Source: an uncultured Bacteroidales bacterium
Lineage (GTDB): Bacteria; Bacteroidota; Bacteroidia; Bacteroidales; Muribaculaceae
Length of the DNA stretch: 36,017 nucleotides
Assembly (NCBI GenBank): GCA_902776955.1
Contig: CACYSG010000029.1
Location: 1-36,017 of the forward strand
Reading direction: 5' to 3'
Under the pieces are notes generated by a model. The model did no database searches. It saw only the letters and a list, made by a program, of their open reading frames with translations, and was not told the origin of the DNA. This document shows, one piece after another, positions 7,556-31,917 of the stretch. How positions within the stretch are numbered: the stretch's first letter is position 1; every line of letters begins with the position of its first letter. The position numbers and the translations under genes were made by a program.

Positions 7556-9502
7556 ATGAAAAGAATCTTTTTGGTGATGACGGTACTGTGCCTGTGGGCG
7601 CTGGGAGCGACTGCGGCAGGAGTGAAGGCCGGGGGACAGAAGACCCTGGTGGACAGCTGCGGCTTTTTCCCGCAATTGAGCCCCGACGGCCAGTGGCTGC
7701 TTTACTCGCCCACCGAGGCGACGTCCCTGCAGCTGAAGAACCTCTCGACGGGCGCCGTGACCACGGTGGCGAGCGTGGGCTACCCGGGATTTGACGCCAT
7801 CTTCGGCGTCGACGGCAAGGTGTATTATATCACCCAGGAGCGCAAGAAGAACGGCCTGGTCTATCGCACGGCCCACTGCTATGACCCCGCGACGGGCAAG
7901 AGTCAGGTCGTGCTCAAGGCGCAGCACGGCCGCGTGCAGGCCATCAACGCCGCGAACGGTGTGGTCATCAACGGCGAGCGACAGGTCTATCACAGCAACA
8001 GCCAGGTGGGCGCCTATGCCTACACCCGCGGCGACATTCTCTACCTCGTGGATGCGGGAGGCGTGACGCGCGCCCTGAAACCGGTGAAGGACAGCAACGG
8101 CTACCTGTGGGCCTCGCTCTCGCCCGACGGCACCCGGGTGCTGTTTGAGGCGGCCTCGCGCGGACTGTTCGTGTGCGACCTCAACGGCCGTGTCATCGCC
8201 GAGCTGGACCAGTACCTGATGCCGTGCTGGTACAATAACGACTACATCATCGCCATGAGCAACGCGGGCAATGTGCGCACCAGCGGCTCGCGCATCTGGC
8301 TGCTGTCGGTCGACGGCGAGACCGTCAAGCCCATCTCGCCCAAGGAGGACCGCGCCGTGCAGCCCATGGCCGCTGCCGGCAAGGTGGTCTATACCATCCT
8401 GTACAGCGGCGAGGTTAAGCAGCTGGAGCTGGACGTCGCCCCCGCTGCGCCGTCGCCCGTTGCTACGGGTAAGGCCCGGGTGGTGAAGGTCAAGGACCCG
8501 GTGAGCCGCAAGGATGTGCCCCGCGTGTTCATCAACCCCGGTCATAGCGGCCACGACAGCGACGACCGCCACATCCCCACGTGGGTCATCGGCGCGAACG
8601 ACACCCTGCACTACTACGAGTCCAATTCCAACCTGACCAAGGCCCTGGCGCTGGAGGAGATTTTGAATAACAAGGGCTACGAGACCGCGCTCTCGCGCCG
8701 CACCAACAACACCGAGGACGACCTGGACCTGTTTGAGATCGTCTCGCTGGCGGCCAACAGCGGTGCCGACGTCTTCTTCTCGATACACAGCAACGCCACG
8801 GGCATCGATAAGCGCATCAACTTCCCGCTGGGCCTGTTCCGCGGCTGGGACGGCCAGCCCGTCGTCGACGGCAGCCTCAAGTTGAGCCAGGCGGTGATGA
8901 AGCACCTCTACGCCAACCAGGCGACCGTGTGGACCCACAACGAGCGTAGCCGCGGCGACTGGTCGTTCTATGACTGGGGTTACAAGGTGGGACTGGGTGT
9001 GCTGCGTTTCAACAAGCTGCCCGGATTCCTGAGCGAGGGCTCCTTCCACGACTATCTGCCCGAGCGCGAGCGCCTGCTCAACGACAGTTACTGCTGGCTC
9101 GAGGCCTGGAACCAGTCGCTGGGCTTTGACGAGTACTTCGGCCGCAAGGGCAAGTTCAAGAACGGCGTTCTCGCGGGTACGGTGCGCTGGAGCGATAAAG
9201 AACGCACCGACGACGACCAGCGCCTGTTCGGCGAGGACCAGCTCAAACCCGTCAACGGGGCGTTGCTGCGCCTCTACACCGGCCGCGGCGTGCTAGCGCG
9301 CATCTTCACGCTCGACAACCTTGACAACGGCGTGTTTGTGTTCACCAACCTGCCCAAGGACAAGTACAAGCTCGAACTGTACTACGGCAACGAGGACCTC
9401 TACGAGACCACCAAGGTCAAGACCAAGAAGAACGGCTCGGTCTACAAGAACCTGAAACTAAAAACCGACCAAAAACCCAAGAAGAAGAAAAGTAGACGTT
9501 AG
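7556..9502 (+). CDS. Propeller-fused N-acetylmuramoyl-L-alanine amidase
   Basis: A 648-residue exported protein predicted to cut the bond between MurNAc and L-Ala in peptidoglycan. Signal peptide 1-21. Residues about 30-300 carry TolB/PD40-like propeller repeats (FFPQLSPDGQWLLYS, LWASLSPDGTRVLFE). The Amidase_3 domain spans about 322-525 with its zinc and catalytic residues in place: His in NPGHSGHDSDD (from 323), Glu in YESNSNLTKAL, His in SIHSNAT and Glu in LSEGSFHDY. Residues 540-630 look like a carboxypeptidase-regulatory-like beta domain, and the tail is lysine-rich. The final SRR codons and the stop lie inside a heptamer array. The next two genes encode the same modules separately. The enzyme family is clear; the role of the propeller is unknown. 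Confidence 0.88.
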   Translation: MKRIFLVMTVLCLWALGATAAGVKAGGQKTLVDSCGFFPQLSPDGQWLLYSPTEATSLQLKNLSTGAVTTVASVGYPGFDAIFGVDGKVYYITQERKKNGLVYRTAHCYDPATGKSQVVLKAQHGRVQAINAANGVVINGERQVYHSNSQVGAYAYTRGDILYLVDAGGVTRALKPVKDSNGYLWASLSPDGTRVLFEAASRGLFVCDLNGRVIAELDQYLMPCWYNNDYIIAMSNAGNVRTSGSRIWLLSVDGETVKPISPKEDRAVQPMAAAGKVVYTILYSGEVKQLELDVAPAAPSPVATGKARVVKVKDPVSRKDVPRVFINPGHSGHDSDDRHIPTWVIGANDTLHYYESNSNLTKALALEEILNNKGYETALSRRTNNTEDDLDLFEIVSLAANSGADVFFSIHSNATGIDKRINFPLGLFRGWDGQPVVDGSLKLSQAVMKHLYANQATVWTHNERSRGDWSFYDWGYKVGLGVLRFNKLPGFLSEGSFHDYLPERERLLNDSYCWLEAWNQSLGFDEYFGRKGKFKNGVLAGTVRWSDKERTDDDQRLFGEDQLKPVNGALLRLYTGRGVLARIFTLDNLDNGVFVFTNLPKDKYKLELYYGNEDLYETTKVKTKKNGSVYKNLKLKTDQKPKKKKSRR

Positions 9503-9541
9503 ACTTTAGACGTTAGACTTTAGACGTTAGACTTTAGACAA
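9493..9541 (+). repeat. Heptamer array TAGACKT, 7 units
   Basis: Seven head-to-tail 7-bp units: TAGACGT and TAGACTT alternate six times, then TAGACAA. The first unit is inside the amidase reading frame, and the TAG at 9500-9502 in the second unit is its stop codon. The 7-bp period places TAG in all three frames. The same heptamer family flanks the 23175 gene. A nonamer array follows with no gap. Confidence 0.95.
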
Positions 9542-9586
9542 GGACCTTAAGGACCTTAAGGACCTTAAAGACTTTAAGGACCTTAA
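9542..9586 (+). repeat. Nonamer array GGACCTTAA, 5 units
   Basis: Five 9-bp units (four GGACCTTAA and one AGACTTTAA) directly abut the preceding heptamer array and end 34 nt before the ATG at 9621. CCTTAAGG forms a short dyad across each junction. Related nonamers occur at 21513-21557 and 26020-26082. Confidence 0.95.
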
Positions 9587-9620
9587 CGAGAGGCAAGCAA
9601 TACAATAACAAGATACAACT

Positions 9621-10532: not shown

Positions 10533-12932
10533 ATGAAAAAGAAATTCCTTCAATCGACAATGATGACGCTGCTGGCGGCGATGGCCGTGAATGTGGCAAG
10601 TGCCCAGCAGCCCCACGTGTATATCAACCCCGGTCACGGCGGCTACGACAGTGATGACCGCAACATGGTCATCTATCCCTTCCATCAGGGCGACAGCGCC
10701 GGCTCCTGGGAGTCGAAGTCCAACCTCAGGAAGGGTCTGGCCCTGCAGGAAATCCTGCAGAAGAAAGGTTACAAGACCAGTATCTCGCGCGTGACCAACA
10801 CCACCGCCGACGACCTGGCGCTCTCGACCATCGTCGCCCTGTGCAACCAGAGCGGTGCCGACGTGTTCATCTCGATCCACAGCAACGCCACGGGCACCAG
10901 TGCGGTGAACAATTTCCCGATGGTGTTCTACCGTGGCTATACCGGCAGCCCCCAGATCGCCAACGCCGACGTGCTCGCGGCGGCCCTGGAGCCATACCTG
11001 TATGCCAGCCAAACCACCGTGTGGACCCACAACTACCAGATTTGGGGCGACTGGTCCTTCCGTCCCGAGTGGGGCACCCAGGGCTATGGCGTGCTGCGCG
11101 GCAACCGTGCGGTGGCCAACCTGAGCGAGGGCTCCTTCCATGACTACATCCCCGAGGCCTACCGCCTGCTGGGACTCCAGTACTGCTGGATGGAGGGCTG
11201 GAACCTCTCGCTGGGCGCCGACCAGTATTTCAACCGTCTGGGCTACTTCAGTCAGGGCGTTGTGAGCGGCAACGTGCGTGATGACCGCATCAAGCGCCTG
11301 CAGGAGAATCCGCAGCCGTTCATTGTCTATGGCGACGACAACCTGAAGCCTATCCACGGTGCCACAGTCCGCCTGCTCGACGACAACGGTACTGAGGTAC
11401 AACGCACCATGACCGATACCCTCAGGAACGGCATCTACACCTTCAAGTATGTCAATCCCGGCATTTATACCGTCGAGGTGACTGAACCGTCACATTTCAC
11501 CCAGACCGCAACGGTCACCGTACAGGCCAATGCGTCGACCTACCAGAACTTCTACCTCAAGCGCGTGCGCGACACGCCCCCCGTGGTGGTGAACTACAGC
11601 CCCGTGTGGCACGAGGGCGACCCTGCCGTGAAGTGCAGCACGCCCATCGTCTTGTCCTTCAACTGGGACATGGACAGCGCGACCACGTGCGGCGCCTTCA
11701 CGCTCGACCCGCCCGTCGAGGGCACTTTCCGCTGGGAAGATTCCTACTACAGGCTCGTGTTTGAGCCCGTGGACGCCTTTGACGTGAACACCCTCTACAC
11801 GCTCACGCTCAAGAAGAGCGCCGAGCACGGTGGCGGCACGCCCATGGAGGAGGACTTTGTGATGCGGTTCTACACCCAGCAGCGCAACCACCTCGAGGAG
11901 CTGGCCGTCTTCCCCTATGAGGGCGCGCCGGTGCACTACACCAAGCCCACCGTCGAACTGCGCGTGGACTCGCTGCTGGATACCTACAACCTGTTCAATC
12001 GCCTGCGTGTGCTCGACAGCGAGGGCAATGAACTGCCCTGGAACAAGCGCAGCATCAAGTACAACAAGAGTGGCGACGATTACGGCTACGTGCGCATCCC
12101 CTTGACGCGCGACATCGAGGTGGGCAAGCAGTACCACCTCATCCTTGACGTAGACATCGCCGACACCGCCGGCATCCACCTGCCCGCGGCCCGCGACATC
12201 GCCTTCACCGGCGTTGACGCCGGCGCCGACAAGCCGGGCATGGAGGTCGTTGAGCCGTTTGAGAATGCCGATGACTATGCCATCAGCGACTATCCCGAGG
12301 CTCCCGCTACCCTGAACCTGGCCACGTCCACCGAGCGGCTCTTCGGCAGCAAGTCGCTGCAGTTGACCTATGACTACGGCGACCGCGACGCCTTCCTGCT
12401 GACCCATCTCAACGGGACCTGGAACACGTCGTTCGTTCGTGGCGACACGCTAGGCCTGCACGTCTGGGGCGATATGGGCTATACCGAGATTCTGGCTAAC
12501 TTCTCCTCGGCTAGCGGGCGTGTCTCCGTGCCGATGTGCGTCGTGGACTTCCACGGCTGGCGCTATGTGACGGCACCACTCGACGCGCTGTTGCCGGGTG
12601 AGGACTACGGATTCTCGGGCTTCACGCTGCGCCGCACCCATGAGGTAATGGGCAAGAGCGGCGCGATACGCTTCGACAACCTGCTCAAGATGGAGTGCAG
12701 CGGCATCGACGAGGTCCGTCTGGCCAATATGCAGGTGAGCGTCAATGGCGACTACATCGTCGTGAGCGCCGACACCTGGGTGCAGGGCGTGGAATTGCTC
12801 GACATCCAGGGCCGCAGCCTCAAGGCCACGGGCGGTAACTGCCTGAACGTTTCACAGGCAGCCCCTGGCATCTATCTCGTGCGCGTCCACATCAACGGCC
12901 GCACCGCGACCCAAAAGATCGCCATCCAGTAA
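10533..12932 (+). CDS. N-acetylmuramoyl-L-alanine amidase with type IX secretion C-terminal domain
   Basis: A 799-residue exported amidase. Signal peptide 1-24 (ends NVASAQ). Amidase_3 domain at about 28-230 with the expected metal and catalytic residues: His in NPGHGGYDSDD, Glu in WESKSNLRKGL, His in SIHSNAT and Glu in LSEGSFHDY. A carboxypeptidase-regulatory-like beta domain follows (about 250-345), then Ig-like modules (about 350-470 and 470-560) and a probable carbohydrate-binding-like region at 580-730. The last 65 residues (VELLDIQGRSLKATGG, APGIYLVRVHINGRTATQKIAI) match the Por/type IX secretion sorting domain. The protein is therefore probably exported across the outer membrane, either anchored there or released. 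It could act on exogenous peptidoglycan. Confidence 0.88.
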   Translation: MKKKFLQSTMMTLLAAMAVNVASAQQPHVYINPGHGGYDSDDRNMVIYPFHQGDSAGSWESKSNLRKGLALQEILQKKGYKTSISRVTNTTADDLALSTIVALCNQSGADVFISIHSNATGTSAVNNFPMVFYRGYTGSPQIANADVLAAALEPYLYASQTTVWTHNYQIWGDWSFRPEWGTQGYGVLRGNRAVANLSEGSFHDYIPEAYRLLGLQYCWMEGWNLSLGADQYFNRLGYFSQGVVSGNVRDDRIKRLQENPQPFIVYGDDNLKPIHGATVRLLDDNGTEVQRTMTDTLRNGIYTFKYVNPGIYTVEVTEPSHFTQTATVTVQANASTYQNFYLKRVRDTPPVVVNYSPVWHEGDPAVKCSTPIVLSFNWDMDSATTCGAFTLDPPVEGTFRWEDSYYRLVFEPVDAFDVNTLYTLTLKKSAEHGGGTPMEEDFVMRFYTQQRNHLEELAVFPYEGAPVHYTKPTVELRVDSLLDTYNLFNRLRVLDSEGNELPWNKRSIKYNKSGDDYGYVRIPLTRDIEVGKQYHLILDVDIADTAGIHLPAARDIAFTGVDAGADKPGMEVVEPFENADDYAISDYPEAPATLNLATSTERLFGSKSLQLTYDYGDRDAFLLTHLNGTWNTSFVRGDTLGLHVWGDMGYTEILANFSSASGRVSVPMCVVDFHGWRYVTAPLDALLPGEDYGFSGFTLRRTHEVMGKSGAIRFDNLLKMECSGIDEVRLANMQVSVNGDYIVVSADTWVQGVELLDIQGRSLKATGGNCLNVSQAAPGIYLVRVHINGRTATQKIAIQ

Positions 12933-12937
12933 TCTTT

Positions 12938-13036
12938 CTAGCCTCTCTAGAACCTCTAGATAATCTAGATAATCTAGAATCTCTAGAAAATCTAGATAAT
13001 CTAGATAATCTAGAGCCTCTAGATCCTCTAGAAATT
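12938..13036 (+). repeat. Nonamer array CTAGATAAT, 11 units
   Basis: Eleven 9-bp units begin 6 nt after the amidase stop. All start with CTAG; CTAGATAAT occurs four times and the others vary in the last five bases. CTAGATAATCTAG across a junction is itself a palindrome. A terminator hairpin follows at 13049, so this array is in the 3' untranslated region and not in a leader. Confidence 0.95.
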
Positions 13037-15554: not shown

Positions 15555-18200
15555 ATGAGAAATAGGATATTGCACTTGATCATCATGGCGCTGACTATTG
15601 TGTCGAGCGCCCGAGCCCAGGATGTCCAGGCCATTGCCGAGCGGCTCGACCTTCAACGCTACGAATTTCCACAGGAGAAGATACACGTGATGACCGATCG
15701 CGGCGCTTACCTGAGTGGCGACACCATCAGGCTCAGGGCCTGGGTGGTGGATGCCGCGACCCATCAGCCGGTGACGGCCAGCAAGTTTGTGTACGTTGAA
15801 CTACTGTCGCCCACCGACTCGGTGTGCGAGCGCGTGAAAATCCATCAGGGCGATGACGGCGTGTGTGAGGGCTATCTGCCCATTCCCGATGACCTGCCCG
15901 AGGGCCGTTACCAGCTGACGGCCTACACCCTGTTCATGCAGAATGCCGGCTATGACTACTTCTGCCGCCAGCCGGTCGATATCGCGTGCCTGATGTCGTT
16001 GAAACAGCGCGTCGTCTCCCAGTGTGTGCGCTTTGACAATGAGGTGGAAGTGAGGTTGCGTTACATGGATTTATCGGGTCAGCCCTGTGAGTTCACGGGC
16101 TTCTATTATCAGAACCAGTATGGGTTTATGAAATCCCATGACGGCGGCTTTGGTGAAACGCAATTCACCCTCAAGGGCAAGGAGGCCCAGGAGCCGTTTG
16201 TGCTCGTCGAGATTGACGGATACGCCAAGTATATCCCGCTGCCCCCAAGCCGCAAGGTGCTGGTGGACTTCTATCCCGAGGGCGGCTATCTGGTGCCGGG
16301 AGTGGAAAATGCCGTGGCCTTCAAGATGCACGACCCCGGTAACCTGACGGTCAAGGCTTCGGGCGAACTGGTGGACGAGCTGGGCATGGTTGTCGCACCC
16401 CTACAGGTCGAGCATGACGGCATGGGCGTGGTGAGGTTCACACCGCGGGCCGATGGCCGCTACACGGCGCGGTGGCGCGACAACTTTGATAAGTTCGCCA
16501 CCTTTGACCTGCCACAGGTGCGTCCCGACGCCACGGTGTTGCAGGTGCTGCACAATACTGACGGTGGAGTGACGCTGCAGGCCGCCGGAGCCCATGTCGA
16601 CGGGTCGGTGCTGGTGGTGCAGCAACGGGGTTGCCTGGTTGCGGCATCACAGGAGTCCATCACCATGAGTGATAGCGAGTTCTCGCCTGGCGTGGTGCAG
16701 GCACTGCTGCTGGATGAGAGCGGCCGTTGCCTGAGCGAGCGCCTCTTCTTTGCCGGTCAGGGAACCCTGGCGGCGACCCCTGTCGAGACGCCACGTCCCG
16801 AATATGGCAACCGCGAGGCGGTGAAGGTGAGCGTGGACCTGAGCCAGTTGGCTGCAAAAGCCGCTGGCGGCGACTGTGCGGTGACCGTCGTTGACGACCA
16901 TGCCGCCATCGTCAGCGAGGGCGACATCTGGTCCAACCTGCTGCTGCAGAGCGACCTGCGCGGCAACATTCATGACCCGGGATACTACTTTGAGCAGGGC
17001 GACAGCGTGGATGCCGGCGAGCGTGCCCGCCATCTCGACATGCTCATGCTCACCCAGGGATGGCGCCGCTATGACATCCCCCGCGTGCTCAAGGGACTCG
17101 TCGCCGAGCCGCAATACCCCCTCGAGGTCTCGCAGGTGGTGACCGGCCGCGTGTTGAGCGAGTTCCGCAAGAAGCCGCTTGCCAATGCCGAGGTGGGCCT
17201 GATTATCCCCAAATTGGAATTTGCCGATGTGGCCACGACCGACTCGCTGGGCCGCTTCTCGGTCCCGGTGCCCCTGATGCCCGATGGCGTGGATTGTGTG
17301 GTCATCGCCATGAACGACAAGGGAAAGAAGCAGACCAATCTGGAACTGGCCAAAGAACAGTATCCCGACACTTATTATCTGATTGATGCCGACGCCTCCA
17401 ACGGATTGACGGCCAATGTGCAGGAAGAGCAGGCCTGGCGACTGATCAATGAGAATGACTGGCGGCACATCAGGCTCGATGAACTGGTGGTGACTGCAGC
17501 CTGGCGTAGGCACCAACCCTCGGTCGAGACAAAACGTTATCTGACGGCCGATGACATTCAAAAATTGGGCATCACCTCGGTCGATGGAGCCTTGAGGGCG
17601 ATAGGTGTGACCAACTTTGAAAAGGTCAATATCACCATCGACGGTGAACCGCTCAGTGACCTCTATTTCACCGATACCGAGACCTTCAAACAGGCATTGA
17701 CCTTGACGCTGGCACAAACCGATTGGAAAAATGATAAGCTCAAGCGCATCAAGTACGCGCCATTTGAAACGGGCACTGACTATGATTTGTCGAATGTCTC
17801 GATTGCCGATGGGTTTATCAGCATGCAGAATGTCGACTATATCGATTTCAGACGTGCTCGTGGAGGAAAGGTATCGGTAAACTTCAGCAGTAAAGCGGTC
17901 ACTGACAAAGTGTGGAAGGAACCCAGCCGATATGTCAAGATTGCCCACCCGATGGGGGCGCAGCAACCCGTGGAATTTTACTCGCCGCGCTACGATCAGG
18001 GAGATTGCGGCATCGAGCCCGGAAACGACCTGCGCCGTGTGCTCTACTGGAACCCCAGCGTGAAAGTGGGAGAGGACGGTAAGGCCAGCTTCGACTTCTA
18101 CAGCAGCGATGCCCGCAACACCAGCTACACCATCCTGGTCGAGGGTGTCACCGCCAGCGGTGAACTCGTCCACGGCAAGCAAGTGGTGGGGAAGAGATAA
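15555..18200 (+). CDS. Exported MG2-domain protein with TonB-plug-like region and no barrel
   Basis: An 881-residue exported protein with a signal peptide at 1-22 (ends SARAQ). Residues about 38-135 form an MG2-like alpha-2-macroglobulin domain (KIHVMTDRGAYLSGDTIRLRAWV, DDLPEGRYQLTAYT). The middle is built of beta-rich modules, including a carboxypeptidase-regulatory-like one near 525-590. Residues about 646-760 resemble a TonB-receptor plug (LDELVVTA, then DIQKLGITSVDGALRAIGV, INITIDGEPL-type strands), but the protein ends about 120 residues later without room for a 22-strand barrel. Such proteins are widespread in Bacteroidales and are often annotated only by these domains; their function is unknown. 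The stop codon lies in a heptamer array. Confidence 0.75.
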   Translation: MRNRILHLIIMALTIVSSARAQDVQAIAERLDLQRYEFPQEKIHVMTDRGAYLSGDTIRLRAWVVDAATHQPVTASKFVYVELLSPTDSVCERVKIHQGDDGVCEGYLPIPDDLPEGRYQLTAYTLFMQNAGYDYFCRQPVDIACLMSLKQRVVSQCVRFDNEVEVRLRYMDLSGQPCEFTGFYYQNQYGFMKSHDGGFGETQFTLKGKEAQEPFVLVEIDGYAKYIPLPPSRKVLVDFYPEGGYLVPGVENAVAFKMHDPGNLTVKASGELVDELGMVVAPLQVEHDGMGVVRFTPRADGRYTARWRDNFDKFATFDLPQVRPDATVLQVLHNTDGGVTLQAAGAHVDGSVLVVQQRGCLVAASQESITMSDSEFSPGVVQALLLDESGRCLSERLFFAGQGTLAATPVETPRPEYGNREAVKVSVDLSQLAAKAAGGDCAVTVVDDHAAIVSEGDIWSNLLLQSDLRGNIHDPGYYFEQGDSVDAGERARHLDMLMLTQGWRRYDIPRVLKGLVAEPQYPLEVSQVVTGRVLSEFRKKPLANAEVGLIIPKLEFADVATTDSLGRFSVPVPLMPDGVDCVVIAMNDKGKKQTNLELAKEQYPDTYYLIDADASNGLTANVQEEQAWRLINENDWRHIRLDELVVTAAWRRHQPSVETKRYLTADDIQKLGITSVDGALRAIGVTNFEKVNITIDGEPLSDLYFTDTETFKQALTLTLAQTDWKNDKLKRIKYAPFETGTDYDLSNVSIADGFISMQNVDYIDFRRARGGKVSVNFSSKAVTDKVWKEPSRYVKIAHPMGAQQPVEFYSPRYDQGDCGIEPGNDLRRVLYWNPSVKVGEDGKASFDFYSSDARNTSYTILVEGVTASGELVHGKQVVGKR

Positions 18201-18235
18201 GAGTTAAGAGATAAAAGATAAGAGATAAAAGATAA
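18194..18235 (+). repeat. Heptamer array RAGATAA, 6 units
   Basis: GAGATAA, GAGTTAA, GAGATAA, AAGATAA, GAGATAA, AAGATAA. The TAA at 18198-18200 in the first unit is the stop codon of the 15555 gene. Confidence 0.92.
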
Positions 18236-18325
18236 TAGGTGGGGGCTTGGGTGTTGGCTTTTCCTTAAAAAATGTAGTTAATTTATAAAAAATGTTGTAA
18301 AACGGGGGTGTAGAGGGGCTTTGTT

Positions 18326-18355: not shown

Positions 18356-18367
18356 TTGCATTAGAAA

Positions 18368-18466
18368 TTGGTCGAATTGGTCGAATTGGTCGAATTGGTC
18401 AAATTGGTCGAATTGGTCAAATTAGACAAATTGGTCCAATAAGTCCAATTGGTCCAATGAGTGAAA
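18368..18466 (+). repeat. Nonamer array TTGGTCGAA, 11 units, in the mRNA leader
   Basis: Eleven 9-bp units: TTGGTCGAA four times, then TTGGTCAAA, TTAGACAAA, TTGGTCCAA and TAAGTCCAA variants ending with TGAGTGAAA. It begins about 7 nt after the likely transcription start and ends 13 nt before the ATG at 18480. No Shine-Dalgarno is present, so the array occupies the region where a leader would contact the ribosome. Confidence 0.95.
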
Positions 18467-21400: not shown

Positions 21401-21512
21401 CGACCGCGGCACCTACCGCACTGTGGTCATGGGCTTCCCCCTGGAGACAGTGACCACCCTGCAGGAACGCACCAGCCTGATGAGCCGCATCATGGAATTC
21501 CTGGGCGACTAA
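18480..21512 (+). CDS. Amidase with inserted golvesin domain and C-terminal modules
   Basis: A 1010-residue exported protein of the Bacteroidetes group often misnamed xanthan lyase. Signal peptide 1-21 (ends PMQAQ). An N-terminal domain at 25-115 is followed by the first part of an Amidase_3-like fold (MWPSHGWYFEP with His154, then RWEWQRARLMQTVEDMYT with Glu). A golvesin-like beta domain is inserted at about 255-365. The amidase resumes with FCLHTDAG (about 478) and VLMELLSHQNFAD (about 564), which supply the second His and the catalytic Glu. A fibronectin-III-like domain (about 605-700) and a 300-residue alpha/beta C-terminal domain follow. The predicted role is cleavage of peptidoglycan stem peptides outside the inner membrane. 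It is the first gene after the 18326 promoter, so it probably leads the cluster. Confidence 0.82.
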   Translation: MKKTSQVLLSLAACLSMALPMQAQDQTFTQEQQDAIQRIVAGKLPEHMGVGDLKVRSLTFENDTVKVDVSENFGDVPFTEAGVEQMRDEIREALGAQYDDSPVLVTIMGNDINKYFADYEPAYKRSHKPFISELDANRHYKHGLDGNIVAMWPSHGWYFEPLLNRWEWQRARLMQTVEDMYTHSYVLPFLIPMLENAGAYVWNARERDTHNVGVVVDNDGGEAQQGYAEHNGKQKWQPGQDAGFAYLRPQYKDFENPFTEGTYRMVKAERDKKKLSTATWDVDMPEAGEFAVYVSYKSLPNSARDVTYTVNSLSGKRQFRVDQTMAGGVWVYLGTFPLAQGMNQAVVEVSNLSDDKDAVITADAIHVGGGKGNIARRVALPTEENRRIAAEQENEKYLGKAGVNYSYIGSGEHPWFHLGSRYYLQWAGFPDSVYSTSHGINDYVDDYRSRGEWVNYLAGGSDVLPDRGGLRVPVDISFCLHTDAGTTPDDEIVGTLLIYCTSSGGKKFGKYANGTPRELSRRYCNLLSTEIVKDIRAKWEPNWTRRGMWDRSYYEARVPEVPAVLMELLSHQNFADMKYGLDPMFRFDVSRAIYKGMLKFIAQRDHRSYVVQPLPVNTFAISKIEKGHYLLTWNPTHDDLSDNADATSYIVCERVGLDGAFKEIATVKGPQYSVRISDNKLHSYRIIAMNDGGRSFPSETLSLGEAAGSFGDVLVVNGFTRVSAPDWFDGPDRAGFDDDKDHGVPYIQQINYLGSQYEFRRALEWKDDDAPGFGSSRSNYETMNVAGNNFDYPAVHGEALMNTGYSFVSCSQQALEAGYNTDGYHLMDLILGKQKEIKTGSGKMPTRFKIYTAGLKDALRRFTSGGGSVMLSGAYVGSDLWDNAAGNNDEAGKKFVKEVLGFEGLHGRASLDGTVNATDSPSNPLSSPGAWSFTNRLNSKTYAVESPDAIRASDDRGFTWMRYGENGLPAAIASDRGTYRTVVMGFPLETVTTLQERTSLMSRIMEFLGD

Positions 21513-21557
21513 AGACCCTAAGGTCCTTAAAGTCCTTAAAGACCTTAAGGTCCTTAT
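21513..21557 (+). repeat. Nonamer array RGNCCTTAA, 5 units
   Basis: AGACCCTAA, GGTCCTTAA, AGTCCTTAA, AGACCTTAA, GGTCCTTAT, starting immediately after the stop of the 18480 gene and ending 51 nt before the ATG at 21609. Same family as 9542-9586 and 26020-26082. Confidence 0.93.
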
Positions 21558-21608: not shown

Positions 21609-23108
21609 ATGGGAAGAATTAATTGCTTTATCCCGTTTGCCAACGCCGAGCAGGCTGCGCAAACCATCCAGAACCTCAAGGAGCAGGAGCTGGTGAACAA
21701 GATTTACCTCCTCGCCACCGAGGAAGGTGCCACCGCCGTCGAGGGCTGCGAGCTGGTGCCCGTCAAGGGCCTGACCTCGAGCGCCACGATGCGTGCCGTC
21801 GCCGAGCGTGCCGACGCCGACTATGTGCTGCTCTACACCAAGTTTGACACCCTGAAGATGGGTCCGTTCTCGCTGGAGCGTTTTGCCAAGCTGGGTGACG
21901 ACACCTGCTCGGGTATGCTCTATGCCGACCACTACAACGTGACCGAGAAGGGCGCCGACAAGGCCCCGGTCATCGATTACCAGATGGGCAGCCTCAGGGA
22001 CGACTTCGACTTTGGCTCGGTGCTGTTCTTCTGCGGCGAGTGCTTCAAGCGGGCTGCGGGCGCGATGAAGGCCGACTATGAGTTCGCCGGCCTGTACGAC
22101 CTGCGCCTCAAGCTGTCGCAGTTTGCCCCCATCACCCACATCAACGAGTTCCTGTACAGCGATGTCGAGCTCGACACCCGCAAGAGCGGCGAGAAGATCT
22201 TCGACTACGTTGATCCGCGCAACCGTGGCCGCCAGATCGAGATGGAGCAGGCCTGCACCGAGCACCTCAAGGAAATCGGCGGCTATCTGGCTTCCACACG
22301 CATCGTCGACGGCAAGGAAGTGCCCAACTTCCGCCACATCGAGTTTGACCAGGACGACTTCGAGGTCGAGGCCACGGTGATGATTCCCGTGCGCAACCGC
22401 ATCCGCACCATCCGCGACGCCATCGACTCGGTGCTCAAGCAGCAGTGCGACTTCAAGTTCAACCTGATGGTTGTGGACAATTTCTCGACCGACGGCACCC
22501 GCGAGGCCATCGCCGAGTATAACGACCCGCGCCTGATTCACATCATCGCCGACTTCTATGACATGGGCATCGGCGGCTACTGGAACCTGGCCGCCCACCG
22601 CAAGAACGCCGGCAAGTTTATCGTGCAGCTCGACAGCGACGACATGTACAAGGACGAGCACACGCTGCAGACGATGGTCAACGCCTTCTACGAGCAGAAC
22701 GTGGCGATGGTCGTGGGCACCTACCAGATGACCGACATCCACCTCAATCCCATTCCCCCCGGCATCATCGACCACAAGGAGTGGACCCCCGAGAATGGCC
22801 GCAACAACGCCCTGCGCATCAACGGCCTGGGCGCGCCGCGTGCGTTCTACACCCCCGTGCTGCGCGAGGTGAAGATTCCTAACACGAGCTACGGCGAGGA
22901 CTATGCCCTGGGCCTGAACATCTCGCGCCATTACCAGATTGGCCGCGTCTATACGCCCGTGTACCTGTGCCGCCGCTGGGACGACAACAGCGACGCCTCG
23001 CTCGACGTCGAGAAGATGAACCGCAACAACCTCTACAAGGACCGCATCCGCACCTGGGAACTCCAGGCCCGTATTGCATTGAATAAGACTTTAGACTTTA
23101 GACATTAG
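21609..23108 (+). CDS. Two-domain family 2 glycosyltransferase
   Basis: A 499-residue cytoplasmic protein with no signal or membrane segment. The C-terminal half, from about 251, is a typical GT2 GT-A domain: ATVMIPVRNRIRTIRDAIDSVL, VVDNFSTDGTREAI and the metal-binding motif QLDSDDMY near 340. The N-terminal half (1-200) also looks GT-A-like (INCFIPFANAEQAAQTIQNL, DADYVLLYTKFDTLKMG) but lacks a clear DXD, so it may be degenerate or bind a donor or regulator. The acceptor is unknown; its place among salvage genes suggests an amino-sugar substrate, as inference. The last seven residues (KTLDFRH) and the stop are encoded by a heptamer array that has run into the gene. Confidence 0.8.
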   Translation: MGRINCFIPFANAEQAAQTIQNLKEQELVNKIYLLATEEGATAVEGCELVPVKGLTSSATMRAVAERADADYVLLYTKFDTLKMGPFSLERFAKLGDDTCSGMLYADHYNVTEKGADKAPVIDYQMGSLRDDFDFGSVLFFCGECFKRAAGAMKADYEFAGLYDLRLKLSQFAPITHINEFLYSDVELDTRKSGEKIFDYVDPRNRGRQIEMEQACTEHLKEIGGYLASTRIVDGKEVPNFRHIEFDQDDFEVEATVMIPVRNRIRTIRDAIDSVLKQQCDFKFNLMVVDNFSTDGTREAIAEYNDPRLIHIIADFYDMGIGGYWNLAAHRKNAGKFIVQLDSDDMYKDEHTLQTMVNAFYEQNVAMVVGTYQMTDIHLNPIPPGIIDHKEWTPENGRNNALRINGLGAPRAFYTPVLREVKIPNTSYGEDYALGLNISRHYQIGRVYTPVYLCRRWDDNSDASLDVEKMNRNNLYKDRIRTWELQARIALNKTLDFRH

Positions 23109-23126
23109 ACTTTAGACATTAGATGG
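23085..23126 (+). repeat. Heptamer array TAGACTT, 6 units, left flank of the four-helix-bundle gene
   Basis: AAGACTT, TAGACTT, TAGACAT, TAGACTT, TAGACAT, TAGATGG. Units 1-3 lie inside the GT2 reading frame, and its TAG stop (23106-23108) starts the fourth unit. The orientation is opposite to the array at 23532-23615, so the two form an inverted pair around the 23175 gene. Confidence 0.93.
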
Positions 23127-23174: not shown

Positions 23175-23546
23175 ATGAAATCTAGTGACTTTAGAAAATT
23201 AATCGTTTGGCAGAAGGCCATGGATCTGACGATAGAAGTTTATTCATTAGTGAAATTACTTCCTCGTGAGGAAACGTTCTCCTTGTGTGACCAGATGCGT
23301 AGATCGGCTGTCTCTATACCAGCTAATATTGCTGAAGGTCAAGGGAGAGATACCGATAAAGAATATAACCGGTTTATTTCTATAGCACGAGGCTCTCTTT
23401 GGGAGCTATTGACTCATATTGAAATTTGTGAACGGTTGAGTTATATTAGCGCTGACCGATCATCCAAGGCAAGGAATTTGATTACCGAAATCAGCAAAAT
23501 GCTATTAGCATTATCCAATGCCATTTCCCCCAAGTCTAACGTCTAA
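23175..23546 (+). CDS. Four-helix-bundle protein, S23/IVP family
   Basis: A 123-residue all-helical protein of the family first seen as intervening-sequence proteins in 23S rRNA genes and related to the Avd accessory protein of diversity-generating retroelements. Diagnostic stretches are FRKLIVWQKAMDLTIEVY, DQMRRSAVSIPANIAEGQGR and YNRFISIARGSLWELLTHIEI. Length is normal. Its molecular role is not established; members are basic and thought to bind nucleic acid. It is clearly more AT-rich than its neighbours and separates GT2 from DUF4922 in an otherwise metabolic cluster. Inverted heptamer arrays flank it, and its last residues (KSNV) and stop are encoded by the right array. I infer a recent insertion. 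Confidence 0.88.
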   Translation: MKSSDFRKLIVWQKAMDLTIEVYSLVKLLPREETFSLCDQMRRSAVSIPANIAEGQGRDTDKEYNRFISIARGSLWELLTHIEICERLSYISADRSSKARNLITEISKMLLALSNAISPKSNV

Positions 23547-23615
23547 CGTCTAAAATCTAACGTCTAGAATCTAACGTCTAAAGTCTAAGGTCTAAGGTCT
23601 AAAGTCTAACATCTA
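23532..23615 (+). repeat. Heptamer array ANGTCTA, 12 units, right flank of the four-helix-bundle gene
   Basis: Twelve 7-bp units of the form NNRTCTA or NNATCTA (AAGTCTA, ACGTCTA, AGGTCTA, AAATCTA, GAATCTA, ACATCTA). They start inside the end of the 23175 gene and finish 5 nt before the ATG at 23621. The unit is the reverse complement of the TAGACNN family at 23085-23126 and 9493-9541. Confidence 0.95.
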
Positions 23616-23620
23616 ATCAA

Positions 23621-24571: not shown

Positions 24572-24619
24572 GGGGGGTGATAAGGACGGTTTTGATGACA
24601 AAAACGACAACTAAGGACA

Positions 24620-24668
24620 AGAAACTAGAAACTAGGGACTAGGGACTAGAAACTAATGACTAGAAACT
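24620..24668 (+). repeat. Heptamer array AGRRACT, 7 units
   Basis: AGAAACT, AGAAACT, AGGGACT, AGGGACT, AGAAACT, AATGACT, AGAAACT, with degenerate units on each side. It lies between the DUF4922 stop (48 nt upstream) and the ATG at 24685 (16 nt downstream). The unit is not related to the other heptamers, although it also carries ACTAG at junctions. Confidence 0.9.
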
Positions 24669-24684
24669 AAAAAACTATAACACT

Positions 24685-26019
24685 ATGGACGAGAAACAGA
24701 TACCGCAGGTGAGAGTCGGCATCATGAACGAGCCGACGATTGGTTTTGTGCTCAACGGCGACTATCGCGTGAACGGGACAACGTGCAGCGGTGCCCATCA
24801 GGTGCAGTGTGTCGATGGGCAGGTCGAGTGGAACGGCCAGCGCTACGGCGAACTGCTGTTTGAGCCCGTGGATGTGGAGAAAGCATCATTCACGCTCAAG
24901 GCGGTGACCATCGGTGTGAGTTTCCACTGGAAGCGCCAGGAGGACCAGACCTTCAAGGGCGCGCTTCACATCATCGTCGAGAACGGCAAACTCACGCCCG
25001 TCAACGTGCTGAGTGTCGAGGACTACCTGCTGAGCGTCATCTCGAGTGAGATGAGCGCCAACGCGTCGCTCGAGCTGCTCAAGGCCCATGCCGTCATCTC
25101 CCGCAGCTGGCTGCTGGCCCAGATCCACACCGAGGAGACCGTCAAGACGGCTGAGCGGAACCCGCATGGCGAGGGCGAAATGATGGACACCCCCGAGGAA
25201 CTTGTCAAGTGGTGGGACCGCGACGACCATGTGAACTTCGACGTGTGTGCCGACGACCATTGCCAGCGCTATCAGGGCATCACCCGCGCCTCGACCCCGA
25301 AGGTCGAGCAGGCCATCCGTGCCACGTGGGGACAGGTGCTCATGCACGGCGGCGCACTGTGCGACGCGCGTTTCAGTAAGTCGTGCGGCGGCGTGATGGA
25401 GGAATTTGAGAACTGCTGGGAGCCGCAGCATCACGACTACCTGGCGGCCCGTCGCGACAGCGAGGACGAGGAGCATTTCCCCGACCTGTCACGCGAGGAC
25501 AACGCCGCCGAGTGGATTCTGTCGAGTCCTAGCGCCTATTGCAACACCACCGACCCCGAAATCCTTTCCCAGGTCTTGAACGACTATGACCAGGAAACCA
25601 AGGACTTCTACCGCTGGAAGGTGGAATATACCCAAGACGAACTCGCCGCCCTCATCAAGGAACGCACGGGCATCGACTACGGCCGCATCCGCGACCTGCA
25701 GCCCGTGGCGCGCGGCACCAGCGGCAGGCTGTACCGCCTGCGCATCGTCGGCGAGAAGCGTGAGCGCATCATCGGCAAGGAACTGACCATCCGTTATGCC
25801 TTGTCGCCCTCGTGCCTGTACAGCTCGGCCTTTGTCGTCGAGAAGCACGACGTGGGCGAGGACGGCTATCCCGCCAAGTTCGTCCTGCGCGGAGCAGGGT
25901 GGGGCCATGGTGTGGGCCTGTGCCAGATAGGCGCTGCCGTGATGGGCGCCAAGGGCTATGACTACAAGCAGATTCTGCTGCACTACTTCGTCGGCGCCAG
26001 CATCGAGAAACGCTATTAA
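24685..26019 (+). CDS. SpoIID/LytB-domain peptidoglycan enzyme without a signal peptide
   Basis: A 444-residue protein of the SpoIID/LytB family, whose founder is a lytic transglycosylase that cleaves the glycan backbone of denuded peptidoglycan. Core motifs: LSVEDYLLSVISSEMSANAS with the candidate catalytic Glu122, KAHAVISRSWLLAQ, SKSCGGVMEEFENCWE near 231 and GAGWGHGVGLCQIGA near 404. The N-terminus (MDEKQIPQVRVGIMNEP) is hydrophilic, and the upstream DNA is a repeat array with no alternative start that would add a signal. The protein therefore appears cytoplasmic, although its substrate class is normally outside. It may act on fragments imported by the AmpG-like protein encoded next. Confidence 0.85.
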   Translation: MDEKQIPQVRVGIMNEPTIGFVLNGDYRVNGTTCSGAHQVQCVDGQVEWNGQRYGELLFEPVDVEKASFTLKAVTIGVSFHWKRQEDQTFKGALHIIVENGKLTPVNVLSVEDYLLSVISSEMSANASLELLKAHAVISRSWLLAQIHTEETVKTAERNPHGEGEMMDTPEELVKWWDRDDHVNFDVCADDHCQRYQGITRASTPKVEQAIRATWGQVLMHGGALCDARFSKSCGGVMEEFENCWEPQHHDYLAARRDSEDEEHFPDLSREDNAAEWILSSPSAYCNTTDPEILSQVLNDYDQETKDFYRWKVEYTQDELAALIKERTGIDYGRIRDLQPVARGTSGRLYRLRIVGEKRERIIGKELTIRYALSPSCLYSSAFVVEKHDVGEDGYPAKFVLRGAGWGHGVGLCQIGAAVMGAKGYDYKQILLHYFVGASIEKRY

Positions 26020-26082
26020 GGCCCTTAAAGTCCCTAAGGTCCTTTAAGTCCTTAAAGTCCTTAACGACCTTAAAGTCCTTTA
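26020..26082 (+). repeat. Nonamer array AGTCCTTAA, 7 units
   Basis: GGCCCTTAA, AGTCCCTAA, GGTCCTTTA, AGTCCTTAA, AGTCCTTAA, CGACCTTAA, AGTCCTTTA, starting at the base after the SpoIID stop and ending 33 nt before the ATG at 26116. Third copy of the RGNCCTTAA family. Confidence 0.93.
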
Positions 26083-26115
26083 AAACGATTAATCACTAAA
26101 AAACAAGATAAAGAT

Positions 26116-27450: not shown

Positions 27451-27457
27451 ACATTTA

Positions 27458-28793: not shown

Positions 28794-28806
28794 CCCTTGG
28801 TTCAAA

Positions 28807-28852
28807 GGGACGGTTCTTTTGGACGAAAATTTTCGTCCAAAAGAACCGTCCC
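28807..28852. repeat. Perfect 46-bp palindrome
   Basis: Two 23-nt arms with no loop, centred between 28829 and 28830. The outer part is GGGACGGTTCT and its complement; the inner part ends in GGACGAAAA/TTTTCGTCC. A third partial arm (TGGACGAAAA) follows at 28855-28864. The outer arms are shared with the palindrome at 13969-14023, so it is a dispersed element inserted between namZ and murT and not a simple terminator. Confidence 0.9.
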
Positions 28853-28874
28853 CCTGGACGAAAACTGAAAGATT

Positions 28875-30035
28875 ATGGCAAAGACCGAAAAACGACTGTT
28901 GTCACTTGATATCCTGCGAGGCATCACCATTGCGGGAATGTTGCTGGTGAATAATCCCGGAACGTGGAGTTACCTTTACCGTCCGCTGGCTCATGCCGAG
29001 TGGATAGGGCTGTCGCCGACCGACCTGGTATTCCCGTTCTTCGTCTTCTGCATGGGTGTGTCGATGGCTTTCTCGTTGAAGAAGTTCAATTACAGGCTTT
29101 CGGGTCCGCTCATGTGGAAAATCGTGCGTCGCACGCTCATCCTGTTCTTCATCGGCTGGGCGGTGCAGTGGTTCGGCCACCTGGTGCGCGGCCTGTTCAA
29201 GGGCGACCCGTTTGTTGAGGCGGTGAACAACCTCGACACGTTGCGCTACATGGGTGTGTTCCAGCGGTTGGCGCTGGTCTATTTCTTCGGGTCGCTGTGC
29301 GTCGTGCTGTTCAGCCGCCGGTTCATCCCGTGGCTGGTGGGCTTGATTCTGGTGGCCTATGCGCTGATTCTGGGCTTGGGTCACGGCTATGATTTCTCGC
29401 TCGAGAACATCATTGCCCGCATCGACAACAGCGTGCTTGGAACCGACCACATGTATCACGAGTGGGCCAACGGCGAACAGCTATCCTTTGACCCCGAGGG
29501 CATCTTGAGCACCTTGCCGTGCATCGCCCATGTGCTCATCGGCTATCTGGTGGGCCGCCTGATTCTGTCGCTTTACAACAACACCGAGCGCGTTTACCGC
29601 ATGCTGTTGTGGGGCGCTGTGCTGGTGCTGGCGGGCTGGTTGCTGCAATATGGCATCCCGTGCGGCAAGAAGATGTGGTCGTCGACCTTTGTGATGATCA
29701 CCTGCGGCATGGCCATGTGCATCCAGGCGATGCTTATCCACTTTGTCGACATCAAGGGGCGCCGGGGCCGCTGGACCCGCTTCTTTGAGTCCTTCGGTGT
29801 CAATCCGTTGGCGCTGTACCTGCTGGGAACGGTGCTGGCCATCCTGTTTGGCGCTATCCCCGTGGGCCACGATGCCGACGGCGACGTCATCTCGATCCAC
29901 AGTGCGGTTTACCGCTTCTTTGAGTCGTTCTGTAACCCGTACATGGCCTCGGCGCTGTATGCGGTCTGCTTTGTGCTGCTCAACTGGGTTGTGGGCCGCG
30001 TGCTTTACAAGAAGAAGATTTTTATCAAGATATAG
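28875..30035 (+). CDS. murT: MurT-like inner-membrane protein, DUF5009/HGSNAT family
   Basis: A 386-residue polytopic membrane protein with about 10-11 hydrophobic segments. The start RLLSLDILRGITIAGMLLVNNPGTW and SPTDLVFPFFVFCMGVSMAFSL are diagnostic of the COG4299 family, related to heparan-alpha-glucosaminide N-acetyltransferase. In Tannerella forsythia the homologue next to murK and murQ is described as the MurNAc transporter MurT. Gene order here is the same. An acetyltransferase role cannot be excluded from sequence alone. The TAG stop falls in the first unit of a nonamer array. Confidence 0.82.
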   Translation: MAKTEKRLLSLDILRGITIAGMLLVNNPGTWSYLYRPLAHAEWIGLSPTDLVFPFFVFCMGVSMAFSLKKFNYRLSGPLMWKIVRRTLILFFIGWAVQWFGHLVRGLFKGDPFVEAVNNLDTLRYMGVFQRLALVYFFGSLCVVLFSRRFIPWLVGLILVAYALILGLGHGYDFSLENIIARIDNSVLGTDHMYHEWANGEQLSFDPEGILSTLPCIAHVLIGYLVGRLILSLYNNTERVYRMLLWGAVLVLAGWLLQYGIPCGKKMWSSTFVMITCGMAMCIQAMLIHFVDIKGRRGRWTRFFESFGVNPLALYLLGTVLAILFGAIPVGHDADGDVISIHSAVYRFFESFCNPYMASALYAVCFVLLNWVVGRVLYKKKIFIKI

Positions 30036-30156
30036 TATTTATAGTACCTATAGTACCTATAGTACCTATAGTACCTATAGTACCTATAGTACCTATAGTA
30101 CCTATAGTACCTATAGTACCTATAGTACCTATAGTACCTATAGTGACTATAGTGAC
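30031..30156 (+). repeat. Nonamer array TATAGTACC, 14 units
   Basis: One TATAGTATT, eleven perfect TATAGTACC (30040-30138) and two TATAGTGAC units, 126 bp in all. The TAG at 30033-30035 is the murT stop. The array ends 43 nt before the murK ATG at 30200. Its homogeneity suggests recent expansion, and copy number is likely to vary between strains. Confidence 0.97.
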
Positions 30157-30199
30157 TATAGTTGAGGTGATTAATAACTTAAAAAACGACAATAATATT

Positions 30200-31051: not shown

Positions 31052-31069
31052 CCCTAAAAAGACAGAATT

Positions 31070-31885
31070 ATGGCATTTGTGAAAATTAGCGAACAAGAGT
31101 CGCTCTACGATAACCTGGAACAGAAATCGGTGCACGAACTGCTCACCGAGATCAACCAGGAGGACCACAAGGTGGCCGATGCCGTTCAGCTGGCGATACC
31201 GCAGATTGAGCGGCTGGTCACCGGCATCGTCGAGCGCATGAAAAAGGGTGGCCGCATCTTCTATATGGGTGCGGGTACCAGCGGGCGCCTGGGCGTGCTC
31301 GACGCCAGCGAGATTCCGCCCACCTTCGGCATGTCGCCGGGGTGGATCATCGGTGTCATCGCCGGTGGTGACGAGGCGTTGCGCAATGCCGTCGAGAACG
31401 CCGAGGACGATACCGCCCAGGGGTGGAAAGACCTCCAGGAGTATCATGTGACGCCGCTCGACACGGTCATCGGCATCGCGGCATCGGGTACGACGCCCTA
31501 TGTCATCGGCGCCCTGCGCGATGCGCGCGCCAACGGCTGCCTCACCGCCGCCATCACCAGCAATCCCGATGCCCCCGTGAGCGAGGTCGCCGAGATTCCC
31601 ATCGAGATGATTGTCGGCCCCGAGTATGTCACCGGTAGCTCGCGCATGAAGAGCGGCACGGGCCAAAAACTCATCTGCAACATGATTTCGACCAGCGTGA
31701 TGATACAGATGGGCCGCGTCAAGGGCAACAAGATGGTCAACATGCAGCTCACCAACCAGAAACTCGTGGACCGCGGCACCCGCTGGCTCGTCGAGGAACT
31801 GAAACTCCCCTACGAGGACGCCAAGCGCCTGCTTCTGCTCCACGGCTCGGTCAAGAAGGCCATCGACGCCTACCGCGGCAACTAG
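31070..31885 (+). CDS. murQ: N-acetylmuramic acid 6-phosphate etherase MurQ
   Basis: A 271-residue cytoplasmic SIS-domain lyase that splits the lactyl ether of MurNAc-6-P to give GlcNAc-6-P and D-lactate. The signature GAGTSGRLGVLDASEIPPTFG starts near residue 67 and includes Glu81, the position equivalent to the catalytic glutamate of the family. GIAASGTTPYVIGAL and GSSRMKSGTGQKLICNMIST are also typical. Length is near the usual 275-300. It is tightly coupled to murK (18-nt spacer), and its TAG stop starts a heptamer array. Confidence 0.95.
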   Translation: MAFVKISEQESLYDNLEQKSVHELLTEINQEDHKVADAVQLAIPQIERLVTGIVERMKKGGRIFYMGAGTSGRLGVLDASEIPPTFGMSPGWIIGVIAGGDEALRNAVENAEDDTAQGWKDLQEYHVTPLDTVIGIAASGTTPYVIGALRDARANGCLTAAITSNPDAPVSEVAEIPIEMIVGPEYVTGSSRMKSGTGQKLICNMISTSVMIQMGRVKGNKMVNMQLTNQKLVDRGTRWLVEELKLPYEDAKRLLLLHGSVKKAIDAYRGN

Positions 31886-31917
31886 TTAATAGTTAATAGT
31901 TGAGAGATAATAGTTGA
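31883..31917 (+). repeat. Heptamer array TAGTTRA, 5 units
   Basis: TAGTTAA, TAGTTAA, TAGTTGA, GAGATAA, TAGTTGA. The first TAG is the murQ stop. The array ends 7 nt before the GTG start at 31925. Confidence 0.9.

Follow-up and report, generated by a model that had tools for sequence, protein, structure and literature searches.

The DNA analysed here (the window) is a contig of 36,017 nucleotides from an uncultured Bacteroidales bacterium of the Muribaculaceae (CACYSG010000029.1). Short tandem arrays lie between its protein-coding genes, and two of these arrays enclose a small gene; we refer to the three together as the window element. Its left (5') arm, a 7-bp array with the unit AGACTTT/TTAGACN, occupies positions 23086..23123 and overlaps the stop codon of the gene at 21609-23108. 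The right (3') arm, a 7-bp array with the inverted unit GTCTAAC, occupies 23534..23616, overlaps the last 13 nucleotides of the enclosed open reading frame (ORF) and ends 4 nucleotides before the start of the gene at 23621-24571. The ORF (23175..23546; all window features are on the + strand) encodes a four-helix-bundle (S23 / 23S rRNA intervening sequence) protein of 123 amino acids. It scores above the curated cut-offs of both PF05635 (23S_rRNA_IVP; E 1e-39, 135.4 bits, cut-off 33.8) and TIGR02436 (E 4.5e-38, 129.8 bits, cut-off 24), which assigns it to the S23/IVP family, and it has a relative of solved structure, PDB 2gsc (E 3e-23). The flanking arrays are inverted relative to each other (TTAGACN and GTCTAAN), and the predicted fold pairs the arms and leaves the gene looped out between them (z -5.54). 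The element is not in a 23S rRNA gene; it sits between the two protein genes just mentioned.

The initial annotation had named twelve intergenic arrays in the window, all with a period of 7 or 9. Tandem Repeats Finder (TRF) recovers every named place, at 9493, 9540, 12946/12955, 18192, 18366, 21510, 23086, 23534, 24609/24620, 26016/26023, 30031 and 31883, with a period of 7 or 9, some listed also as the multiples 14, 21 or 27. The remaining TRF rows in the window are tandem repeats of 57 bp (55-258) and 63 bp (6192-6328), both multiples of three, and rows with scores of 31-53 and periods of 6, 8, 9, 11, 12 and 15, which are mostly genic. Arrays were counted both with TRF and with a lag-match count. 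Our sample of the same genome consists of the window and 20 further stretches (433,474 bases, or 13% of 3.23 Mb; the draft, G000, is 89.7% complete). It was compared with 1.18 Mb from relatives in the same genus-level group (63 loci) and 302 kb from more distant ones (17 loci), whose records are labelled Muribaculaceae, Prevotellaceae, Porphyromonadaceae or Bacteroidales, many of them of ruminant-animal origin. Genes were called with a simple custom script trained on the window, which misses small genes (e.g., 23175-23546) and is weak on other genera, half of whose DNA it calls coding.

In the genome of the window, TRF finds 23 arrays of period 7 and 24 of period 9, along with 1 of period 8 and 2 of period 10. 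With the lag-match count, the 68,665 spacer bases yield 30 arrays of period 7 and 27 of period 9, 2 each of periods 8 and 10, 3 of period 12 and none of periods 1-6, in addition to multiples of 7 and 9. In 345,123 bases of coding DNA, five times the amount of spacer, the same count gives 1 array of period 7 and 3 of period 9, and in shuffled spacers it gives none. The arrays are nearly confined to spacers, and the spectrum proposed as a check, inside and outside genes, does peak at 7 and 9 in spacers. In the genus relatives, TRF finds 34 arrays of period 7, 4 of period 8, 25 of period 9 and 2 of period 10, as well as 15 of period 14. The stricter claim, that periods are only 7 or 9 and never 6, 8 or 10, describes what dominates genome-wide but is not absolute: sister species have 13 arrays of period 8 against 48 of period 7 and 29 of period 9 (lag count, in which runs of N add about 2 per period), and a species of another family (G247) has 8, 1, 5, 8 and 4 arrays of periods 7, 8, 9, 10 and 11. 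Neither period 7 nor period 9 is found by TRF in the 17 loci of distant relatives, where the lag count shows a single segment of period 9. A 12-bp array of about 50 copies of GCCTCAAAGCAA was seen at L009:16822-17433.

The arrangement of the window element recurs around other genes of the family. We gathered 70 S23 genes, both from this genus and from further families in the same order (30 loci, one per genome, and 40 places chosen from the match list rather than every place; three broken or cut ORFs, L203, L205 and L210, are included) and searched for tandem arrays within 180 nucleotides on each side. Arrays are present on both sides of 47 of the genes, on one side of 18 and on neither side of 5. 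The period is equal on the two sides in 45 of the 47, with 35 pairs of period 7, 5 of period 9, 3 of period 8 and 1 each of periods 6 and 10; the two unequal pairs are (9,10) and (10,9). The identical test on ordinary genes of 270-800 bp, a control set that may hold one or two four-helix-bundle genes, found arrays on both sides in 8 of 88 in the genome of the window and 2 of 82 in the genus. Among all 250 genes sampled in the former there were 21, of which 12 have equal periods. For 57 of the 69 genes with long enough flanks, and for 16 of the 30 best-scoring S23 loci that make up a phylum-wide sample, the left and right flanks of the gene are more complementary to each other than the 95th percentile of mismatched flanks. 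The family itself is widespread: of 148 Bacteroidota genomes, 116 contain a match.

A protein search of plasmid records gave 27 matches, mainly from cyanobacteria (Nostoc, Calothrix, Trichormus, Anabaena and others), of which 16 were analysed (15 cyanobacterial and one from Gemmatirosa; some, such as L347 and L352, share a site). Arrays flank 11 of the 15 cyanobacterial genes on both sides, all with period 7, for example AACAGGG/CCCTGTT in Nostoc and AGGGTGT/ACACCCT in Calothrix, and the Gemmatirosa gene has period 8 on both sides. All 12 two-sided cases thus have equal periods (eleven of 7, one of 8), compared with 2 of 138 shifted places in these loci. As a separate observation, three of the cyanobacterial four-helix-bundle genes lie co-directionally between cas genes (cas6|cas4, cas10|cmr3); two of these (L339, L349) have heptamer arrays on both sides and the third (L342) an 8-mer array on one side.

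Period and unit both follow the class of the protein. Some elements in our set of 130 occur twice under different locus ids; flank-sharing elements were merged by site clustering, and one element per insertion site was kept. This gives 71 sites from 120 elements, all of which have an array and encode 85 or more amino acids. Protein similarity correlates with unit (Mantel rho 0.51, permutation maximum 0.14) and with period (rho 0.50, permutation maximum 0.13), both with p<=0.001. An earlier run, which kept 63 of 70 elements and mixed elements of shared sites, gave a rho of 0.38 and was redone in this form. When the 71 proteins are divided at 150 amino acids, the 38 shorter ones have periods of 7 (30 sites), 8 (3), 9 (2), 6, 10 and 12 (1 each), and the 33 longer ones have periods of 9 (26), 10 (5) and 8 (2), and never 7. 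The short class, of about 120 amino acids, thus goes with 7-mers, and the long class, of about 180-265, with 9-mers, periods 8 and 10 being minor. The two period-9 elements within the short class are L230 (114 amino acids) and L241 (147 amino acids, with a start like that of the long class and an early end). The presence of both classes in the genus probably accounts for the restriction to periods 7 and 9. Because unit and period can be predicted from protein similarity when different sites are compared, we conclude that gene and arms travelled and changed together. The initial annotation had proposed that length is fixed and sequence free. The restricted period does point to something that fixes the length of the unit, but sequence is not free: both follow the S23 protein class.

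Five long-class proteins score 28.4-29.7 bits with PF05635, below its cut-off, and 28.3-32.3 bits with TIGR02436, above its cut-off; in 4 of the 5 tested, the four-helix-bundle suffix domain TIGR04258 is also above cut-off. About half of the 9-mer units of this class have a core palindrome of at least 6 bp. Within the class, the link to sequence can be followed further: among 30 loci, some at shared sites, TCTAGA occurs within about 300 nucleotides of 18 of the 20 genes that are at least 62% identical to the gene L297 (itself counted), and of none of the 10 genes at 50-59% identity, several of which have CTATAG arms instead. Both classes have also occupied one site, where a short gene with 7-mer arms is present in L217 and L221, and a long gene with a 9-mer array in L244, both of whose flanks are homologous; a further long gene with 9-mer arms, in L245, shares the left flank of this site. 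Two other long-class proteins (L246, L300) were seen with period-8 TCGANNNN arrays, and the C-terminus of that in L246 is a topoisomerase-type zinc ribbon.

Arrays without a gene far outnumber the genes: there are 67 arrays of period 7 or 9 in the sampled 13% of the genome, and 8 matches to the four-helix-bundle family in the whole draft. The units of 25 of the 36 arrays of period 7 and 21 of the 31 arrays of period 9 match an element arm (a few being element arms themselves), whereas shuffled units give 2.9 and 3.5. Eleven window arrays were compared with element arms in this way, and ten reach the threshold used, that at 23534 being an arm itself. The 7-bp array TAGACGT/TTAGACN at 9493..9539 starts within the 3' end of the upstream gene, whose stop ends at 9502; its unit is that of the window element's arms (23086/23534), and it matches L189, which is the window element, at 7/7 positions. 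The 9-bp array AAGGACCTT, placed by TRF at 9540..9589, belongs to the CCTTAAGG family and matches an arm of L295 (G330) at 9/9; a gene with an arm of this family's type is present in the same genome as the window (G000:C11:76014; L212/L302). Two further 9-bp arrays match L212 at 8/9, namely TAAAGTCCT, also of the CCTTAAGG family (21509..21556), and CCTTAAAGT (26016..26083), and the first letters of each are the stop codon of the preceding gene (18480-21512 and 24685-26019). The 9-bp array TCTAGANNN at 12934..13034, with a palindromic core and a variable triplet, directly follows the stop of the gene at 10533-12932 and matches L297 at 8/9. The 9-bp array TATAGTACC (CTATAGNNN) at 30031..30162, of 14.7 copies, starts at the stop of the gene at 28875-30035 and matches L329 (G287) at 8/9.

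The remaining 7-bp arrays each match an arm at 7/7. AAGAGAT (18192..18238) lies at the stop of the gene at 15555-18200 and matches an arm in the same genome (L209, G000:C12:84916). ACTAGAA/ACTAGGG (24609..24673) lies before the start at 24685 and matches an arm of L182, in sister species G007. TAGTTAA (31883..31919), whose first letters are the stop codon of the gene at 31070-31885, matches an arm of L234, in sister species G017. The array below threshold is the CCAATTGG-like 9-bp array AATTGGTCG (18366..18458), which precedes the gene at 18480 and matches the arm of an element in the same genome (L213/L291, G000:C16:72907) at only 7/9. No Rfam match reaches the gathering score in the window. 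The co-directional gene run at 7556-32578 includes Amidase_3, SpoIID, MFS and NamZ proteins and is possibly concerned with peptidoglycan breakdown and recycling.

That the units are mostly unrelated, as the initial annotation had it, does not hold, because families recur. The TATAGTACC array has 12 matching places, itself included, and triples of TCTAGANNN number 96 in the genome of the window, where these are overlapping matches, so that a long array is counted several times. Of 101 genus genomes, 74 contain triples of TCTAGANNN, between 1 and 165 apiece, and the other 27 contain none. In the 20 genus genomes that have a full-length gene of the TCTAGA group, the median is 22 triples and 1 genome has none; in the other 81 the median is 3 and 26 have none (one-sided p 7.6e-5, kinship uncorrected). 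Outside the genus, 246 genomes of the order include two with such triples (83 in G247 and 1 in G075), and a further 394 genomes of the phylum sample include none. G247, seen at L154-L157 with arrays of periods 7, 9, 10 and 11, has TCTAGANNN adjoining a long-class gene of its own, and it is not a contaminant as far as can be seen. A chimeric assembly as the source of its TCTAGANNN was likewise rejected: the protein at its L10 locus shares 79% identity with the counterpart in a genus mate and 52% with that in the window's genome. Four viral contigs (L166-L169) were also seen to contain TCTAGANNN x4.

In a comparison of orthologous junctions, which the initial annotation had suggested, sister species differ by whole units, by 9 bp between L067 and L069 and by 27 bp between L077 and L079. 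At one junction (L082/L083) a 9-mer array in one species is replaced by inverted heptamers in the other, and other shared junctions have a different family or no array. Where a spacer holds at least two heptamer arrays, these are in inverted order in 16 of 21 cases, of which at least one is an S23 element itself. In these 16 spacers the left and right units agree as reverse complements at 4.94 of 7 positions, compared with 3.92 when partners are shuffled (0 of 2000 shuffles).

Five features are established by these observations: the architecture, the link of protein class with period and sequence, the co-occurrence of genes with array families, the gain and loss of whole units, and the intercistronic placement. 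We consider it probable that the arrays are the arms of small hairpin elements, resembling the intervening sequences (IVSs) of rRNA genes, that reside between protein genes, encode S23 proteins matched to their arms and have left many gene-less derivatives. In this model, an intact element would consist of a tandem array, a four-helix-bundle (S23/IVP) gene and a second array, as a rule inverted, and its arms could pair to form a long hairpin that has the gene as its loop. The majority of arrays in the genome would be gene-less relatives, namely lone arms, pairs of inverted arms around a short loop, or self-palindromic 9-mer arrays. Period and unit would belong to the element's protein class, and arrays would lengthen and shorten by whole units. 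We further suppose that each protein would recognise the repeat of its own element, that the transcribed arms would pair and be cut as in rRNA IVSs, and that the protein of an intact copy could spread gene-less arrays.

Several results weigh against this interpretation. A pure RNA-stem constraint is disfavoured: on the sense strand, 13 core changes are G-U-compatible and 40 are incompatible, and the tendency of both arms to change together in same-site relatives (8 of 13 clusters) does not reach significance (p 0.16). Extra folding is modest, with a mean z of -2.82 in spacers with 9-mers (n 46) versus -1.67 in array-less spacers (n 392). Two-sided arrays are not always inverted (they are direct in L349), and only 8 of the 16 plasmid S23 genes exceed the 95th percentile of mismatched-flank complementarity. 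In the phylum-wide sample the arrays are fainter, with only 3 of 30 genes flanked on both sides and 14 on one. No known arm matches 21 of the 67 arrays at the threshold used. The draft containing the window lacks an intact gene for its abundant TCTAGANNN and CTATAGNNN families, and the gene closest in sequence, C48 (55% identity to L297), is interrupted by an in-frame stop; TCTAGA-armed and CTATAG-armed genes (e.g., L281/L335 for the latter) are present in sister species, and none was found in this draft. Therefore, some families seem to outlive their gene, or else the gene lies in the missing tenth of the draft. Finally, movement has not been observed, and an empty site with a target duplication has not been defined.

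A model in which hairpin formation alone maintains the arrays was also considered. Palindromic 9-mers and well-folding spacers fit it, but the G-U test points the opposite way and array-less spacers too fold better than shuffles; we therefore keep folding as a property of the arrays and not as their cause. Long near-perfect hairpins were seen in array-less spacers (window 28793-28877, L106:7651, L110:17213), and GGACGGTTCTTTTG-like words from such spacers recur in other spacers of several species.

The placement of the arrays bears on a second explanation, according to which they are intercistronic mRNA control elements kept for the host operon (stabilising, separating or attenuating, or acting as A-rich heptamer leaders) and the S23 proteins are host regulators that bind them. 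Between co-directional genes lie 161 arrays (93 of period 7 and 68 of period 9, in this genome and its relatives), compared with 23 between convergent genes (18 and 5) and 4 between divergent genes (0 and 4). The co-directional arrays start within 12 nucleotides of a stop codon in 43 of 93 cases for period 7 and 38 of 68 for period 9, and 43 of the 93 heptamer arrays end within 15 nucleotides before a start. On the sense strand, start-side heptamers contain AACT/CTAA in 28 of 29 cases with none reversed, and stop-side heptamers contain AGTT/TTAG in 19 of 29 with 2 reversed. Palindromes of at least 6 bp occur in 37 of 79 period-9 units, with 14.9 expected from shuffled units, but show no excess in period-7 units (8 of 113, 10.4 expected). 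Across 27 palindromic 9-mer arrays, variation is 4% in the core columns and 31% in the spacer columns, and palindromic hexamers repeated at a spacing of 9 form 50 pairs in this genome and 85 in the genus, compared with 0-6 at spacings of 7, 8 or 10. The position at stops and just before starts, the orientation and the palindromic cores are all in keeping with control of mRNA. However, sister species can have another family, another period or no array at the same junction, so no given array is needed, and 27 of the 101 genus genomes are without a TCTAGANNN triple. We therefore regard control of the host operon as unlikely to be the reason for the arrays. If they are instead IVS-like elements, their location at stop and start codons could reflect tolerance of cutting there. 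A simpler idea, that the arrays provide back-up stops, was prompted by the many units that contain TAA or TAG and the many arrays that open with the gene's stop; it was dropped because the stops of 9-mer arrays, judged by eye, are often out of frame with the gene.

It is also rather improbable that the S23 gene is a passenger, the mobile unit being an unknown non-coding element with array ends that repeatedly captured genes. The great excess of gene-less arrays over genes would be natural under that explanation, whereas the ability of protein similarity to predict unit and period between different sites is not. Least probable of all is neutral slippage, in which the polymerase takes steps of 7 and 9 nucleotides, arrays survive between genes and S23 genes merely lie in repeat-rich spacers: although whole-unit differences between sister species, nearly array-free coding DNA and the proposal of a polymerase contact for heptamers (Mrazek 2007, as cited in passages of PMC4679880) speak for it, unit and period track protein class across sites and species, control genes are seldom flanked on both sides, TRF finds no such arrays in the 17 loci of other genera, and the disparity between core and spacer columns is unlike slippage followed by drift. 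A polymerase step of 7 or 9 as the sole cause was rejected, given the periods of 10 and 11 in G247 and the predictive power of protein class; slippage with a set step, one of the mechanisms suggested in the initial annotation, thus fails to explain the protein-class link, though whole units are indeed gained and lost.

Under the reading of the arrays as arms of IVS-like elements, short tandem arrays once put down to polymerase slippage gain an origin and a cause of their period, and they are tied to the widespread S23/IVP protein family. Because protein and repeat change together in this dataset, recognition of the one by the other is testable. A broader generalisation is conceivable, and we offer it tentatively, judging it somewhat less likely to be right than wrong: S23 proteins may form a repeat-recognition system with a readable code, in which each subfamily reads one unit in a class-specific register (7 for the short class, 9 for the long, with 6, 8 and 10 minor) and drives array growth, spread and processing between genes in Bacteroidota and cyanobacteria. 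The rRNA IVS would then be a special case within a general class of selfish RNA elements between cistrons, whose relics would include many of the heptamer repeats of bacteria. The narrower reading as IVS-like elements may itself connect repeats described separately in cyanobacteria, in Beggiatoaceae and in 23S rRNA IVSs. In the literature titles and abstract openings that we searched, with most subscription journals outside the search, no link of S23 genes with short tandem arrays was found.

Among known systems, diversity-generating retroelements are connected through their Avd protein, a distant relative of the window protein. The window protein scores 34 bits with NF033474 (cut-off 80) and 29.8 bits with the bAvd profile PF22296 (cut-off 40), both below the curated cut-offs, so it does not qualify as an Avd equivalog. 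Heptanucleotide short tandemly repeated repetitive (STRR) sequences of cyanobacteria are tandem heptamers in spacers, as are the 30 arrays of period 7 in the 68.7 kb of spacers counted here. The initial annotation had named them as the nearest parallel, and the comparison is apt, since cyanobacterial plasmid S23 genes have heptamer arms; it fits only part of the set, because about half of the Bacteroidales arrays are 9-mers. A link with S23 elements may account for the similar cyanobacterial repeats.

Two further kinds of repeat resemble a part of what we find. According to the portions of MacGregor 2015 (PMC4679880) drawn on here, TAACTGA repeats occur sporadically in Beggiatoaceae, cyanobacteria and some Bacteroidetes, mostly just upstream of starts and in one orientation. 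Our AACTNNN heptamers before starts share this orientation, but there is one unit there and there are many here; TAACTGA itself is in no window array, and near units occur in relatives (AACTGAA/AACTGAT in L116, AACTGAC/AACTGAA in L187). A word search of the accessible text of that paper found neither 'S23' nor 'four helix'. The long simple sequence repeats of 5-11 nucleotides that PMC4679880 cites from Mrazek 2007 fall in the same class of periods, heptamers reportedly being the commonest category in most genomes; a polymerase contact was proposed there, and a link to protein-coding elements is found here.

The closest counterpart is the 23S rRNA IVS of Coxiella, Leptospira and others. The sections of Warrier et al. 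2016 (PMC4990558) on which we rely describe the Coxiella IVS as an S23 ORF with terminal inverted repeats that are cut by RNase III, and with tandem heptamers that precede the ORF and vary in number between strains; they state that S23/IVP has no known function. In both systems an S23-family ORF lies in the loop of a stem formed by terminal inverted repeats, and here such complementary sequences around the ORF are found in the predicted fold of the window element as well as in the 57 of 69 elements with complementary flanks. Unlike the rRNA IVS, the present elements lie between protein genes, their arms are tandem arrays, usually on both sides, their unit and period follow the class of the protein, and they include a long class with 9-mers and many arrays without a gene.

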